64,000 bases of DNA, from NCBI GenBank assembly GCA_004299095.1, contig SCQQ01000121.1, forward strand, positions 1 to 64,000, read 5' to 3'. Numbering within the stretch: the stretch's first letter is position 1; each line of letters opens with the position of its first letter. This document shows positions 10,608 through 50,528 of the stretch, piece after piece. This stretch comes from Burkholderiaceae bacterium. Lineage in GTDB: Bacteria > Pseudomonadota > Gammaproteobacteria > Burkholderiales > Burkholderiaceae_C. The position numbers and the translations under genes were made by a program. A model generated the notes under the pieces. It made no database searches and was not told where the DNA came from. It saw nothing but the letters and a program-made list of their open reading frames with translations.

Positions 10608-11798
10608 CTACAGACGTGCCAACCGTGCGAGTGCGGCGCGCAGCGTGTCTTCCTTTTTGGCAAAGCAGAAGCGCACCGCCTTCTGGTCGAAGCCGTTGCC
10701 GTAGAACGCCGACACCGGAATCGCCGCCACGCCGATTTCGCGCGTCAGCCATTGGCAGAAATCGGCCTCGGACAGGTTGCGCTCCGGACCGTCGAGGTCG
10801 GCGAACGACGCCGATTGGAAATACGTGCCTTCGCATGGCAGCAGCCGGAACCTCGTCTGCTCCAGGCCGGCGCGGAACAGGTCGCGCTTTCCCGCGTAGA
10901 ACCGGGCCAAATCCAAATAGGGCGTCGGATCGCTCATGTAGGCGGCCAGGCCGTACTGCACCGCGGTATTCACGCTGAACACGTTGAACTGGTGCACCTT
11001 GCGGAATTCGGCCGTGAGGTCGGCGGGTGCGGCCACGTAGCCGACTTTCCAGCCGGTCACGTGGAAGGTCTTGCCGAAGCTGCTGACGATGAAGGCGCGC
11101 GCCGCCAGGCCAGGGTAGCGCGCCACGCTTTCGTGCCGCCCAGGCGCGTACACGATGTGCTCGTACACCTCGTCGCTGATCAGCAGGATGCCGGTGGGTG
11201 CCAGCAGTTCCTGCAGGCGCTGCATGTCTGCTGCCGACCAGATGGTGCCGCTCGGGTTGTGCGGGCTGTTGATGATCAGGGCGCGCGTTTTCGGGCTGAT
11301 GGCCGCGGCGATCTTGTCCAGGTCGGGATGGAAGTCACCCGGCGTGAGCGGCACGCGAATCGCCGTGGCGCCCGCGAGTTCGACGTTCGGCACGTAGCTG
11401 TCGTAGCACGGGTCCAGCACGATCACTTCGTCCCCCGGGCTCGTGCAGCACAGAACCGCGGTCAGGATCGCTTGGGTGGCGCCCGCGGTCACGGTGATTT
11501 CCGCGTCGGCGTCGTAGCGGCGACCGTACAACGCTTCGATCTTGGCAGCCACTGTGGTGCGCAGCGGCGCCACGCCGGCCATCGGTGCGTACTGGTTTTG
11601 CCCCGCGTTCATGGCCTGCGTGACGGCCTGCACCAGCTTGGGATCACACGGGAAATCGGGGAAACCCTGCCCCAGGTTGACCGCCTGATGTTGGGCCGCC
11701 AGCGCCGACATCACGGTGAAGATGGTGGTGCCCACATGGGGCAGGCGAGACGGGAACGTCGGGGCGGATTCAGAGCGCATAGTCACTGGCTTGACCAT
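10608..11798 (-). CDS. PLP-dependent class I/II aminotransferase (methionine aminotransferase-like)
   Basis: A cytoplasmic fold-type I aminotransferase of 396 residues. Visible motifs are VNLGQGFPDFPCDP near residue 41, NSPHNPSGTIW near 175 and VSSFGKTFHVTGWKVGY near 235, whose lysine binds pyridoxal phosphate. The opening HVGTTIFTVMSALAAQ and the GQGFPDF motif are typical of the YbdL/KAT group, which transaminates methionine or kynurenine. It overlaps the 3' end of the CysB-like regulator by 29 bases; I chose ATG 11798 because AAAGG precedes it, with ATG 11780 as alternative. The context suggests a sulfur-amino-acid link, which is inference. Confidence 0.88.
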   Translation of the reverse strand: MVKPVTMRSESAPTFPSRLPHVGTTIFTVMSALAAQHQAVNLGQGFPDFPCDPKLVQAVTQAMNAGQNQYAPMAGVAPLRTTVAAKIEALYGRRYDADAEITVTAGATQAILTAVLCCTSPGDEVIVLDPCYDSYVPNVELAGATAIRVPLTPGDFHPDLDKIAAAISPKTRALIINSPHNPSGTIWSAADMQRLQELLAPTGILLISDEVYEHIVYAPGRHESVARYPGLAARAFIVSSFGKTFHVTGWKVGYVAAPADLTAEFRKVHQFNVFSVNTAVQYGLAAYMSDPTPYLDLARFYAGKRDLFRAGLEQTRFRLLPCEGTYFQSASFADLDGPERNLSEADFCQWLTREIGVAAIPVSAFYGNGFDQKAVRFCFAKKEDTLRAALARLARL

Positions 11799-12711
11799 TC
11801 ATGGCCTTTTGCACCAGGTCCCGGTCCAGTCGGTCGGACAACTGGTGCACGAAGTAATAAACGAAATCGCGCAGGTAGGCGCCGCGTCTGAACGCAATGC
11901 GCGTGATGTTGTGGCCGATCAGGCGGCCCAGCGGCCGGGTCGTGAGGTCGCGGTCGGTGTCCTTGTCGACCGCCATTTCAGCCACGATGCCGACGCCCAG
12001 TCCGAGGCGCACGTAGGTCTTGATGACGTCGGAGTCGATCGCTTCCAGCGCCACGTTGGGCGTCAGGTGGTGGCGTGCGAAGGCCGCGTCGATGCGCGTG
12101 CGGCCGGTGAACGACGGGTGATACGTAATCAGTTCCTCGCCCGCGATGTCGGCCAGCGTCACGCTTTTTTTGTGCGCGAGCGGATGGTCGTTGCGCAGCA
12201 CCAGCACGTGCTGCCATTCGTAACAGGGCAGCGTGATGAGTTCCGAATAGTCGTTGACCGATTCGGTGGCGATGCCGATATCCACGCCGTCTTCGATCAC
12301 CATGCGCGCGACTTGATCCGGCGTGCCCTGGTGCAGGCTCACGTTGACCTTGGGGTAGCGCGCGCGCAGTTGCGTGACCGCCTTGGGCAGCACATAGCGT
12401 GCCTGCGAGTGCGTGGTGGCAATCGACAGCGTGCCGAAATCGCGCGCGCTGTACTGTTCGCCGATGCGCCGCAGGTTGTCGACTTCGCGCAGGATGATGG
12501 CGACGCTCTCGATCACGTGCTGCCCGGGTTCGGTCACGTTCTTCAGGCGCTTGCCGTGGCGCGCGAAAATCTGGATGCCCAGCTCCTGCTCCAGCTCGAT
12601 GATCGCCTTGGAAACACCGGGCTGGGAGGTATGCAGCGCCTTGGCCGCATCGGTCAGGTTCAGGTTGCGGCGCAGCGCCTCCTGGACGAAGCGAAATTGG
12701 TGCAGGTTCAT
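11770..12711 (-). CDS. cysB: LysR-type regulator, CysB family
   Basis: A 313-residue transcription factor. Residues 1-60 form the winged helix-turn-helix (MNLHQFRFVQEALRRNLNLT, then ALHTSQPGVSKAIIELEQEL), where the sequence is CysB-like rather than generic LysR. The effector domain contains ATTHSQARYVLP near residue 100 and PSFTGRTRIDAAF near 200, both shared with CysB and Cbl and forming the sulfate/N-acetylserine pocket. CysB activates sulfur-assimilation genes. The gene lies immediately before an aminotransferase with which it overlaps. Orthology to CysB versus a paralogue cannot be settled without a tree. Confidence 0.87.
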   Translation of the reverse strand: MNLHQFRFVQEALRRNLNLTDAAKALHTSQPGVSKAIIELEQELGIQIFARHGKRLKNVTEPGQHVIESVAIILREVDNLRRIGEQYSARDFGTLSIATTHSQARYVLPKAVTQLRARYPKVNVSLHQGTPDQVARMVIEDGVDIGIATESVNDYSELITLPCYEWQHVLVLRNDHPLAHKKSVTLADIAGEELITYHPSFTGRTRIDAAFARHHLTPNVALEAIDSDVIKTYVRLGLGVGIVAEMAVDKDTDRDLTTRPLGRLIGHNITRIAFRRGAYLRDFVYYFVHQLSDRLDRDLVQKAMNGQASDYAL

Positions 12712-12840
12712 GACCTAAATCCAGCAGTTGGATGCGCCTGTCAATGCCGTGGTCGACGTGCAAGGCAAGGGTAAGCGCTGCGGCTCCGAAAGCGCCTGCG
12801 CGCCTCCGGACAGCGCGAACGAGTCTGGCCTCTGGTTGGA

Positions 12841-12907
12841 CCGCGCCTCGCAAGTGCGAGGACGCAGCGCACATCGGTGCGCAAGGACGAGTAACGCAGC
12901 GTGGCGC
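12841..12907 (-). repeat. Dispersed intergenic hairpin repeat, copy A
   Basis: Read on the minus strand, GCGCCACGCTGCGTT is followed by TCGTCCTTGC, then two adjacent hairpins: GCGCAC-CGAT-GTGCGC (plus coordinates 12867-12882) and CCTCGC-ACTT-GCGAGG (near 12846-12861), separated by the GCGTCCTCGC segment. The same flanking words with different stem sequences occur at 42572-42643 in the opposite orientation. The element lies in a non-coding gap upstream of the CysB-like gene. Function unknown; it resembles a mobile or structured-RNA repeat. Confidence 0.6.
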
Positions 12908-13137
12908 ATTGAGTGCGGCGCTGGCAGGCGCTTGGCGCCCTCACTCATATCGCGAACTGCATTGCGGCGGGATTCAATATTCATTTGATCTTGCAACGGA
13001 TAACAAGCGGTCGACTGCCGGATATAGGCTAGATATATCTCAATGCGTAATTATGCTCGATTCGTTATAACTGACAACGGAAATCCGATAAGCGATCGAT
13101 CACGGCGCGTATCACGGGACGGGCGCCCGGGATGGCG
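12908..13137. other. Non-coding gap with an AT-richer stretch
   Basis: No open reading frame here looks like a gene. Roughly 12970-13100 is clearly richer in A and T than its surroundings and includes GATATAGGCTAGATATATC, a partly symmetric segment. It could hold a promoter for the CysB-like gene more than 250 bases away, or be a relic. No firm promoter elements could be assigned. Confidence 0.4.
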
Positions 13138-41610: not shown

Positions 41611-42450
41611 TCACTCCTTGCGTTTCGGCGGGTTGGTGGGGGTTTGAGCGAACAACTGGCGCACGTCGTCGCGCAGGCGGGCCGAACTGATTTCGCCCAT
41701 GTGCGTTTCCAGCAGGCGGCCGTCAGGGCTATAGAACAGCGTGGTCGGCAGGCCGCGCGAGTGGACCGCATCGAGGATGGCCGACTGGTGATCCAGCAGC
41801 ACGTGCTGGAACTTCAATTTCTTGTATTTCAGGAAACTTTCGACCAGCGGCGCGTTTTCGCCCTGGTTCACCATCAGGAACGTCACGCCTGGGTACTCAT
41901 GCTGGGCGCGCTCGAGCGCCGGCATTTCGCGCTGGCACGGTGGGCACCACGTGGCCCACAGGTTGATCACCAGCGGCTTGCCGCGGTAGGTGTCGAGTGT
42001 GACCGGCTGGGCTTGCAGATTGGTGAGCGCCACTTGTGGCAACGGCGGCGCGTCGCGATTCAATACCAGCAAACCACCCTGCGCCAGCCCCCAGGCGCCC
42101 ATGCCGAGCGCGATGGCGCCCAGGAGCGGCCAGCGCAGCCGTGGCAGCGCGTGCGTGCGCCAGAGCGCGAAGACGATCGCGGCGGGCAGCCCGGCCCACC
42201 AGTAAAAGCCGCCATCACCCAGGGCGACGATGGCCATGGGCTGGACCATGTAGTCGGACCACCAGGCCGCGACATAGGCCACGCGGGCGGCGAGCAGGCC
42301 CACGACCAGCGTGTCGATCACCAGGCTCGCGGTTTTCCGGCGCTCTCCAGGTTCGTGCCGGCCGATGAAGAAGCGCGCACCCAGCCAGGCCAGGAACGCC
42401 GCCAGTGCCACGGCCACGACGTGCACCGAAAACGGGCCGATGCCGATCAT
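41611..42450 (-). CDS. TlpA-like thioredoxin with Lgt-like membrane domain
   Basis: A 279-residue fusion. Residues 1-125 form about four hydrophobic segments resembling prolipoprotein diacylglyceryl transferase (IGIGPFSVHVVAVALAAFLA; DTLVVGLLAARVAYVAAWW), but where Lgt has its HGG motif this protein has GGFYWWAG, so the transferase histidine is absent. Residues 130-279 are a periplasmic TlpA/ResA-type thioredoxin with LWATWCPPCQREMPAL near 172. It probably reduces disulfides in a specific partner such as apocytochrome. It sits between dsbD and the dsbC/G-like gene. Confidence 0.85.
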   Translation of the reverse strand: MIGIGPFSVHVVAVALAAFLAWLGARFFIGRHEPGERRKTASLVIDTLVVGLLAARVAYVAAWWSDYMVQPMAIVALGDGGFYWWAGLPAAIVFALWRTHALPRLRWPLLGAIALGMGAWGLAQGGLLVLNRDAPPLPQVALTNLQAQPVTLDTYRGKPLVINLWATWCPPCQREMPALERAQHEYPGVTFLMVNQGENAPLVESFLKYKKLKFQHVLLDHQSAILDAVHSRGLPTTLFYSPDGRLLETHMGEISSARLRDDVRQLFAQTPTNPPKRKE

Positions 42451-42571
42451 CTTAAAAACGGCAGTTGACCGCTTGCGAATTTCGCGGGAGCCGCATGAGC
42501 ATTAACAAAGGCCATTTCAATAAACCAAGCATTTCGACGAGAGCGCTACACGCTTACCAGCACCACGCTCG

Positions 42572-42643
42572 CCGCGCCACGCGGCGTTGTGCTCGTCCTT
42601 GCAGGCACTTGCCTGCGGCGTCCTCGCGCCTTGCTTGGCGCGC
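42572..42643 (+). repeat. Dispersed intergenic hairpin repeat, copy B
   Basis: Between the TlpA-like gene and dsbD, three successive hairpins: CCGCG-CCA-CGCGG (42572-42584), GCAGGC-ACTT-GCCTGC (42601-42616) and CGCGCC-TTGCTT-GGCGCG (42625-42642). The linking words GCGCCACG, GCGTT, TCGTCCTTGC and GCGTCCTCGC also occur in copy A at 12841-12907 on the other strand, where the stems differ in sequence but are again paired. Non-coding; function unknown. Confidence 0.6.
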
Positions 42644-42686
42644 CGATCGCAGCGCTGGCGAACGTGTTCAACTGTCGTTTTCAGGA

Positions 42687-44552
42687 TCATGAAACGCCAG
42701 CGGCCGACAGCACGTGCAGGAAATCGCTGGCGCTCAGCTCACCGACCATGCGCTGCGCGCGCGCTTCCTTGCCGTCTGGCGCAATCAGGATCATGGTGGG
42801 CGGCCCGAGCACTTGCAGGCGTTTCAGCAGCGCCTGGTCGTCGGCATCGAACTTGGTGACGTCGGGGCGCAGCACTTGCAGGTTGGCCAGGCGCTGGATG
42901 ACTTCGGGGCGGCCGAACACGTTGCGCTCGTTCACGCGGCAGCTCACGCACCAGTCGGCGTAGAAGTCGATCAGCGTCCACTGGCCGCGCGCCTCGGCTT
43001 GTTTAAGCCGGGCGTCCAGCTCTTGCACGTTATTGATCGGGATGTAGTTGACATGCGCCGGGGCCGTGGGCGACGTGCCTGCCTGCGTGAGTGCCAAGTG
43101 TTCCAGCGGGCGCAGCGGCGAATCGCCGCCCGAGGCGGCGCCGGTCAGCATCATCACCGACCAGAGTCCGACGAACGCGGCGCCGAACGCCACCGACCAC
43201 CCGGCGCGCTTCTGCAGCGTGAGCGCGTGCGTCCAGCCGGCCAGTCCGACGGTCACGCCCAGGCCGAGCACACCCCACAGCAGCAAGCTCACGGTGCCTG
43301 GCAGGAAGCGGCTCAACATCAGCACCGCCATGCCGGCCATGACGTAGCCAAAGGCAATGCGCACGCGCTCCATCCACGGACCGGGACGCGGCAGCACGCG
43401 CGCGCCGAAAACGGCGATCAGCAGCAGCGGCAAGCCCATGCCGATGCCGAGCGCGAACAGCGCCGCGCCGCCCATCACCGCATTGCCGGTCTGGCCGATG
43501 TAGAGCAGGGCGCCTGCAAGCGGCGCGGTCATGCACGGGCCGACCAGCAGCGCCGACAGAAAACCGAGCACACCAGCGCCGGTCAGGCTGCCACCCACCT
43601 GCCGGTGCCCAGCTGCATCCAGGCGATTCACCAGGCGTGCCGGCAACTGCAATTCAAAGCCGCCGAAGAGCGAAATCGCGAGCAGCATGAAGAGCGCGGC
43701 AAATGCACTCAGCACCCAAGGCGATTGCAGCGCGGCCTGCACGTTGGCGCCGGCCAGGCCCGCCACCACGCCGACCACCGCGTACGTCGCCGCCATCGCC
43801 AGCACGTACGCGAGCGCCAGGCCGAGTGCCCGCCGCGGCCGGGCGCGGCTGCCCACGACCAGCGTGGAGATGATGGGAATCATCGGCAGCGAGCACGGCG
43901 TGAACGCGAGCAGCAGGCCAAAGCCCAGGAACAGCAGCGTCGCCAACGCCGGGCTCAGGCTGCCGAGGCGTTGTGCGGCGGCTTGATCTTCGGCTATCGC
44001 GGGCGCCGCGTTGGCCACGTTGCTGGACAACGCCGCGGTGAACGGCAGCGCAGCCGTGGCGCTGAAGCGCGACCCGCCGCCCAGTCCATTGCCCGGGCCC
44101 GACCCGCTTGCTCCGGTCGCGCCAGCCACGGGCAAATTGACCTTGATTTGCTGCGGCGGGTAACACACGCCCGCGTCGGCGCAGCCTTGCCAGTGCAGCG
44201 TGGCGGCGCCGTGGACGCTGGCGGGAACCGAGAGAACGAGGGCGTTATTGCGGTAGACCTCGCTGTCACCGAAGAACTCGTCGTGATGCTCGGTACCCGG
44301 CGGCAGCGTCAGATCGATGGGCGCGCCGCTCTCATCGGTGAGCTTCAGCGACTTGCGATAGATGTAATAGCCCTTGGCCACCGTCACTGCGGCGCTCGAC
44401 TGGCTACCGTCCACTTGCCACGCCTTCAGCTTGAACACCTGGTTGGGCGGCAAAAAATCGCTTTCGCTCCTGAACGAAAACGCATTCGCCCCTTGCGCCA
44501 GGCCAAAGGCGAACAGCAACAGCACCCAAGAGAGCAACTTGCGATATGGCAA
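42687..44552 (-). CDS. dsbD: Thiol:disulfide interchange protein DsbD
   Basis: DsbD carries reducing power from cytoplasmic thioredoxin across the membrane to DsbC/DsbG and TlpA-like proteins. The 621-residue protein has all three parts. A signal peptide (LLSWVLLLFAFGLAQGANA) precedes the N-terminal periplasmic domain with WQGCADAGVCYPP near residue 122-135. Eight hydrophobic segments from about 200 to 460 include LAFTPCSLPMIP and LVGPCMTAPLAG, the membrane cysteines. The C-terminal thioredoxin domain has FYADWCVSCRVNERNVF near 530. Start is TTG 44552. Confidence 0.94.
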   Translation of the reverse strand: MPYRKLLSWVLLLFAFGLAQGANAFSFRSESDFLPPNQVFKLKAWQVDGSQSSAAVTVAKGYYIYRKSLKLTDESGAPIDLTLPPGTEHHDEFFGDSEVYRNNALVLSVPASVHGAATLHWQGCADAGVCYPPQQIKVNLPVAGATGASGSGPGNGLGGGSRFSATAALPFTAALSSNVANAAPAIAEDQAAAQRLGSLSPALATLLFLGFGLLLAFTPCSLPMIPIISTLVVGSRARPRRALGLALAYVLAMAATYAVVGVVAGLAGANVQAALQSPWVLSAFAALFMLLAISLFGGFELQLPARLVNRLDAAGHRQVGGSLTGAGVLGFLSALLVGPCMTAPLAGALLYIGQTGNAVMGGAALFALGIGMGLPLLLIAVFGARVLPRPGPWMERVRIAFGYVMAGMAVLMLSRFLPGTVSLLLWGVLGLGVTVGLAGWTHALTLQKRAGWSVAFGAAFVGLWSVMMLTGAASGGDSPLRPLEHLALTQAGTSPTAPAHVNYIPINNVQELDARLKQAEARGQWTLIDFYADWCVSCRVNERNVFGRPEVIQRLANLQVLRPDVTKFDADDQALLKRLQVLGPPTMILIAPDGKEARAQRMVGELSASDFLHVLSAAGVS

Positions 44553-50321: not shown

Positions 50322-50528
50322 GAGGCTGAGAGGCAATCCTCCATGCCCGCCTGGCGCCCCAAAACGCCGCCCATCATCGTTTCAAGTACTCGCCATGGCC
50401 CGAAGCCATGGCTGCGTTTTGCGTCTCGATGGGCTGCGTTTTGACGTGCCTTTCGGGCACGGCCGATGCCCCCTCTTGCCCTCTGAGCCCGCATCGGCAG
50501 TGGTTGCGGGCTGGCGGCTCCGCGCGGT

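Follow-up and report, generated by a model that had tools for sequence, protein, structure and literature searches.

A MITE-like family in Burkholderiales genomes with a conserved fold on one strand

What kind of repeat changes both arms of a hairpin stem together while the words around the stem stay fixed, and what preserves its structure? The question was raised by two stretches in a window of 64,000 nucleotides (the whole stretch of DNA that was analysed), at 12841-12907 on the minus strand and 42572-42643 on the plus strand. Both were found as a preliminary description had given them, with the words quoted there, and the inner stem differed in both arms, being GCGCAC/GTGCGC in one copy and GCAGGC/GCCTGC in the other. 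The pattern TCGTCCTTGC-N(4-30)-GCGTCCTCGC was matched exactly at just two places of the 3.14 Mb genome, 12856-12890 (minus) and 42593-42627 (plus), both in the window; the reversed pattern, used as a control, had none. Wider searches of the genome, with a stretch of one copy and with a covariance model, as had been proposed, yielded copies beyond these two. A query of 86 bases from the plus-strand copy (copy 2) retrieved five more clear copies from the same genome at 74-88% identity (about E 4e-4 or better). The covariance model described below found 8, copy 2 among them (a lower bound, as 8 candidates were scored), and on the window it matched the minus-strand copy (copy 1) too.

On reading the flanks of matches in relatives, inverted ends were seen at a constant distance. 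The repeat unit was thus real, but the borders first drawn around it enclosed only the middle of a larger element. The consensus element is 235-236 bp long, with ends CCTAGAAACSGCAGTTGA and terminal inverted repeats (TIRs) of 18-19 bp; sizes ranged over 235-320 bp, with no transposase gene and no gene of its own that could be supported. Inverted TIR pairs were 220-239 bp apart in 128 of 150 cases (loci overlap, and some elements were counted more than once). The 184 full-length profile matches reduced to 166 distinct ones, 149 of which spanned 241-245 bases including a few flanking ones.

Copy 2 has the standard form (235 bp) and occupies 42451-42685 (profile match 42449-42687), with TIR matches at 42451-42468 (plus) and 42668-42685 (minus). 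Plus is here the strand with the words quoted earlier, and the strand that folds is minus. The element sits precisely where a dsbD gene meets a tlpA-like gene, with ATCAT on both flanks. The left target-site duplication (42446-42450) overlaps the start codon of the tlpA-like gene (ORF 41611-42450, minus), and the right one (42686-42690) lies at the dsbD stop codon (ORF 42687-44552, minus; DsbD by Pfam). Copy 1 has the long form (315 bp) and was placed at 12714-13028 on the minus strand from profile matches at 13028-12842 and 12770-12713 and from the sequence. One of its ends adjoins the start codon of a LysR-type gene (11770-12711; LysR by Pfam); its flanks, CATGA and CTAGA, do not make a clean duplication.

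In the long form an extra hairpin domain of ~85 bp is inserted beside the conserved internal loop, right after GCGTCCTC. In copy 1 these extra hairpins lie at 12780-12861 (approximate extent, set by eye), with CCTCGCA/TGCGAGG at 12846-12861 and a second hairpin, and an insertion of the same type was found in L071, L264, L284, L289 and L291. A second covarying hairpin had been reported from the two window copies (CCTCGC/GCGAGG versus CGCGCC/GGCGCG). That comparison fails, because copy 1 has its extra hairpins right after GCGTCCTC and the CGCGCC...GGCGCG of copy 2 belongs to the 3' arm of the long stem, so that the parts compared are not homologous.

Mobility was assessed in a sister genome (G023) with roughly 100 copies, where left-end matches with up to 3 mismatches numbered 60 forward and 51 reverse. 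Reading 98 left-end matches from 95 stretches gave 71 distinct complete elements. A perfect 5-bp duplication flanked 41 of these, and at least 4 of the 5 bases agreed in 56; the commonest duplications were TTGAA (12), TTCAA (6) and GTGAC (4), and the target was often NTNAN. By class there were 48 standard elements with the core (29 with perfect duplications), 14 long ones with the core (7 perfect) and 9 short ones without it (5 perfect). Many copies look like recent insertions, their duplications being intact. Also seen in this genome were two very short forms of 50 and 76 bp (L272, L277), little beyond two inverted ends, the 76-bp form having a perfect GTTAC duplication, and a sub-group of left ends that starts AATAG, not CCTAG (e.g. 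C12:3138, C30:26162). An empty-site test was made at the dsbD/tlpA junction; 28 other genomes of the genus gave one DNA match and two TlpA matches, too diverged to use.

The TIRs and target duplications indicate that the element is mobile. A mobilised element had indeed been among the suggested readings, and the mobility stood; the REP/TnpA-REP (RAYT) kind did not, given the size of 235-320 bp, the TIRs and the 5-bp duplication. The reading as a recombination target was not supported. The context of 167 deduplicated full copies was read from our own, crude gene calls: 121 were intergenic, with a gene on either side, 3 fell within a long frame, and for 43 an edge was too close for a judgement. 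The family almost certainly consists of non-autonomous, MITE-like DNA transposons whose insertions are mostly intergenic.

Six short copies of 146-148 bp were compared with the rest. Five were nearest to a non-short copy (one of the five to an incomplete one), one of them at 100%, and the sixth (L391) had two equally close nearest neighbours, another short copy and a full-length one. Identity averaged 0.91 among short copies versus 0.89 among standard copies. Separate deletions at the foot of the long stem are thus the somewhat likelier origin, with some spread of coreless copies possible. Since coreless copies with intact duplications occur (5/9), the core is perhaps dispensable for movement.

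The conserved fold consists of a long stem (P3), a tandem G·A internal loop and an apical hairpin (P4). It was predicted with RNAalifold from 66 diverse members out of 73 stretches (L221, L157, L038, L103, L196, L129 and L231 were left out as irregular), yielding 40 pairs, 38 of them with change on both sides. Paired cells amounted to 95.2%, versus 74.1% after shuffling, and covariation to 0.589 versus 0.201, with none of 500 shuffles as high; when the partner was slid by 1-3 columns, covariation was at most 0.137. The proposal that paired change preserves a secondary structure, made from two copies, was thereby borne out in 66 members with both controls.

In copy 2 the fold lies at 42543-42671 on the minus strand and scored 115.3 bits (E 1.8e-24), this stretch (L002) being among the 66 sequences from which the covariance model was built; its P4, GCAGGCA/TGCCTGC, is at 42601-42616 (minus). 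Copy 1 was absent from the training set, and its fold, broken by the long-form insertion, scored 53.1 bits (E 3.5e-10) at 12728-12938 on the plus strand, with P4 (GCGCAC/GTGCGC) at 12867-12882 (plus). The fixed words form the internal loop, C-GA-S-GA-C opposite G-GA-S'-GA-G, that is, two tandem G·A motifs around a covarying pair. The pair S/S' is C-G in 42/66 and G-C in 20/66, and the G·A/A·G partners are kept in 60-64/66. Rfam 15 had no match in the window, and in four relatives gave one match (E 0.39, 20.8 bits) under the gathering score of 57.3 bits. A weaker covariance-model match (40.8 bits, E 2.3e-7) was found in the window at 50336-50466, between two convergent genes; read by eye, this stretch has a long hairpin with ends resembling GGCTGAGAGG.../...CCTCTGAGCC, and is perhaps another dispersed palindromic element.

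The fold was assigned to the complement of the strand carrying the words quoted earlier. In 91 of the 166 distinct elements, kept after removal of near-duplicates, the consensus energy was -194.9 on this folding strand versus -161.3 on the other. With the prediction made on the folding strand, a choice that itself favours G-U over A-C, G-U pairs numbered 298 versus 20 A-C; 64 of the 66 sequences had more G-U, none had more A-C and 2 tied, the alignment cells not being independent since the sequences are related. Prediction from the other strand gave the same direction in the long stem (A-C ~173 versus G-U 23, summed by hand), a weaker asymmetry in the TIRs (~46 versus 18, also a hand sum) and none in the small TCACC hairpin (23 versus 25). 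Rates of C->T and G->A differed at most 2-fold over five site classes, three with the asymmetry and two against it, too small a difference for the 15-fold G-U excess. Only one of the two strands tolerates wobble pairs; the fold is therefore that of a single strand, and the element keeps it over great divergence at nearly constant length. It is very probable that selection acts on the fold of that one strand. The suggestion of a structured RNA holds as far as the fold is concerned; the strand is opposite to the one quoted, and the folded molecule may be RNA or single-stranded DNA.

The family was searched for beyond this genome, with at most 14 (60-genome search), 2 (300-genome search) or 8 (398-genome search) candidates scored per genome, so that copy counts are lower bounds. 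Matches occurred in 21 of 60 relatives (own genome included) and, at E 1e-5 or better, in 29 of 300 genomes of the order (own included) and 19 of 135 genera. For 8 of these genomes a match covered 234-236 of 236 bases at 65-80% identity, and a profile search found full-length elements in more of these loci than plain matching. Exact ends were found in 20 of 399 genomes, and across the phylum the covariance model had matches at E 1e-4 in 30 of 398 genomes, the own one among them. Full elements were present on contigs titled Ramlibacter, Herbaspirillum, Pseudorhodoferax, Methyloversatilis, Inhella and Thiobacillus, and on one plasmid each of Polaromonas and Caballeronia; a Methylobacterium record was matched over 24% only. 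Viral contigs had no exact match to the TIR pattern, and phages gave only short, weak matches to the element. Core words, with all four combinations allowed at the covarying loop pair, were found in at least 119 loci. Among the matches listed, 99 loci had the full element, 15 were cut by a contig or locus end, L233 was a long form matched in two pieces, and L151, L183, L227 and L237 were partial. As these loci were chosen by their core words, the conservation of the words in them is partly built in.

Distant matches of the covariance model were read at 11 loci and in 20 further stretches. Most distant cores keep a recognisable GGCAAGGCGCGASGA...GASGAGCAACGC (e.g. L304, L306, L307, L311, L313); L303, L308, L309, L310 and L312 depart more from the motif. 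Believable terminal repeats of other kinds were present at 10 of the 11 loci and in 16 of the 20 stretches. They comprised AGAACCTATYTCAGTAG (158-180 bp), AGTGTCCTGTCTC (158-164 bp) and GGGCGTGT... (179-188 bp), and elements with two cores had GGCCTGTTAACA- or GGGTCTGTTGACG-like ends (264-295 bp) or, in L310, AGTGTCCTGTCCC ends at 266 bp. Since all but the AGAACCTATYTCAGTAG kind are somewhat alike, the independent kinds of TIR, window family included, may be three rather than five. No TIR was found at the distant cores L303, L428, L429 and L444; that of L432 was not credible. Plain DNA comparison independently linked one distant core to the Caballeronia copy (78.1% over 72 bases, E 3e-4).

At the seven double-core loci (L307-L313) the plus match is nearest the left end and the minus match nearest the right end. 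One of these 14 matches is weak (the second of L313, E 0.062), and in L308 the opposite strand has one more, likewise weak (E 0.1). From this orientation, the strand that folds has its 5' end at the nearest terminus. It is conceivable, if rather doubtful, that small transposons served by different transposases share a transferable single-strand module in the core (GGCAAGGCGCGASGANG - hairpin - GASGAGCAACGCNGC, and variants). One host protein of wide distribution would recognise it in RNA or single-stranded DNA, and its carriers would gain an advantage in spreading. The core would then be a shared 'passenger signal' of bacterial MITEs.

Taken together, the best explanation, to which we give a probability of about 0.6, is a MITE family with a conserved one-strand fold, probably mobilised in trans, in which the fold may aid propagation. 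From the TIRs and duplications, a DDE-type transposase acting in trans would move the element by its inverted repeats. The fold might act when its strand is single, either in DNA displaced or nicked during transposition or replication or in RNA read through from outside; this is the weakest step of the scheme. It would favour the element's propagation, probably through a host protein that it binds, as is proposed from the presence of a recognisable core in small elements with other terminal repeats. A role of the fold in the element's own propagation is put forward tentatively, at somewhat less than even odds, with single-stranded DNA slightly favoured over RNA. Read-through RNA and a displaced DNA strand both fit the strand rule; the slight lean to DNA comes from gene orientation, which is not in favour of folding-strand RNA. 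Among the 64 copies of the 121 whose neighbours are co-directional, the non-folding strand runs with the genes in 41 and the folding strand in 23 (two-sided p 0.03; crude gene calls).

No autonomous element with the same TIRs was found in the 3-8 kb loci examined. The only TIR pair of this kind with a transposase gene between its ends, a 1776-bp candidate in genome G195 with an IS4-like transposase (NF033592, 72.7 bits against a cut-off of 115), was rejected as a 236-bp element with a nested insertion. The inserted IS4-like sequence (L345, G195:C1:1497300-1500100, at 598-2126) is 1529 bp long, has ends AACGGTGTCTGG, lies inside the small hairpin and is flanked by an 11-bp duplication, ACCCATTTGGT/ACCTGTTTGGT, with 2 mismatches; subtraction of 1529 bp and one 11-bp duplication leaves exactly 236 bp. 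No relative of this transposase was found in 299 genomes (an empty answer that shows nothing alone), plasmids, phages or viral contigs.

Several other explanations were weighed. That the fold serves host mRNAs as an RNA element, acting in stability, termination or processing as reported for NEMIS and ERIC and kept for the host's benefit, would agree with its stability, the fixed internal loop and the frequent position between co-directional genes (64/121), and MITE RNAs that regulate neighbours are described in the accessible part of PMC2229807. This is unlikely, as the folding strand is not preferentially co-transcribed with the neighbours (23 versus 41) and many copies look recently inserted, with intact duplications. 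Paired changes could also arise without selection for structure, by quasi-palindrome correction. Long inverted arms are substrates of template switching, and apparent deletions at the stem base would be in keeping with it. Such switching would, however, restore Watson-Crick arms and not leave 298 G-U versus 20 A-C pairs on one strand, and it would explain neither the fixed loop words nor the covarying middle pair; we regard it as improbable.

Still less probable is a small gene. On the strand quoted earlier, several copies from the genus have an open frame of ~62 codons that stops at the inverted repeat. Of the 142 copies that have both anchors, 133 keep one frame open across the relevant span (24 more lack an anchor), and a hypothetical gene is annotated over part of a Polaromonas copy, though on the other strand. 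Against this, another frame is open in 107/142, the length is one or two bases off the commonest in 44/166, and copy L126, read by eye, does not keep the frame. An origin as REP/BIME-type palindromes, mobilised by a tyrosine transposase of the REP-associated kind (RAYT), would agree with the mostly intergenic, palindromic and dispersed nature of the element, and the fixed words contain CGTC, as do CGTC-tagged REPs (PMC3733652, accessible part). Here CGTC lies within an internal loop and is no free end tag, and a unit of 235-320 bp with TIRs of 18-19 bp and 5-bp duplications contrasts with the 20-40 bp given for REPs in that part of PMC3733652; this origin is scarcely credible. The MITE family with a selected one-strand fold, probably mobilised in trans, is preferred.

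A MITE is known from Polaromonas sp. JS666 (Mattes et al. 2008, as cited in the accessible part of PMC10969869), the genus of two carriers of the present family, and may be the same element. In the accessible parts of PMC2229807, PMC3733652, PMC10969869 and PMC4853749, MITEs with stable folds are already known. In the literature searched, where subscription journals are thinly covered and novelty is hence unproven, no account recognisable as this element was found; searches with sequence words returned only work on animals, plants, cell culture or a parasite. Given the known stable-fold MITEs and the possible identity with the JS666 element, any claim to novelty is confined to the fold, the strand that forms it and the occurrence of the core in other elements. 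The usual view of MITEs is of insertion sequences in decay. The present family, spread over many genera of a single order, has retained a precise fold of one strand with hardly any change in length, and a recognisable form of its core also occurs between different terminal repeats. It can now be asked in testable form what reads the fold, and whether as DNA or RNA, and the covariance model offers a possible means of annotating such stretches elsewhere.

We know of no tandem G·A core in NEMIS/Correia or ERIC/YPAL. These are likewise small TIR elements with stable folds and RNA effects on neighbours, and they differ in having TA at the termini (both points from the accessible part of PMC2229807) and other TIRs. 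CGTC- and GTAG-tagged REPs are dispersed palindromes like the present family, the CGTC class without a known transposase; in the accessible part of PMC3733652 they have 20-40 bp, an unpaired tag and no TIR or duplication of the present kind. By its size, TIRs and 5-bp duplication, the window family is a MITE and not a REP. The nearest known system in kind is, by analogy, bcr1 of the Bacillus cereus group, which is dispersed, makes a 5-bp duplication and has a conserved predicted fold with compensatory changes. The two are alike in these points of description, and bcr1 belongs to another phylum. It is listed as a MITE in the accessible part of PMC3733652. The window family differs from bcr1 in that the strand of its fold is identified by wobble asymmetry and its core is common to elements with other TIRs.
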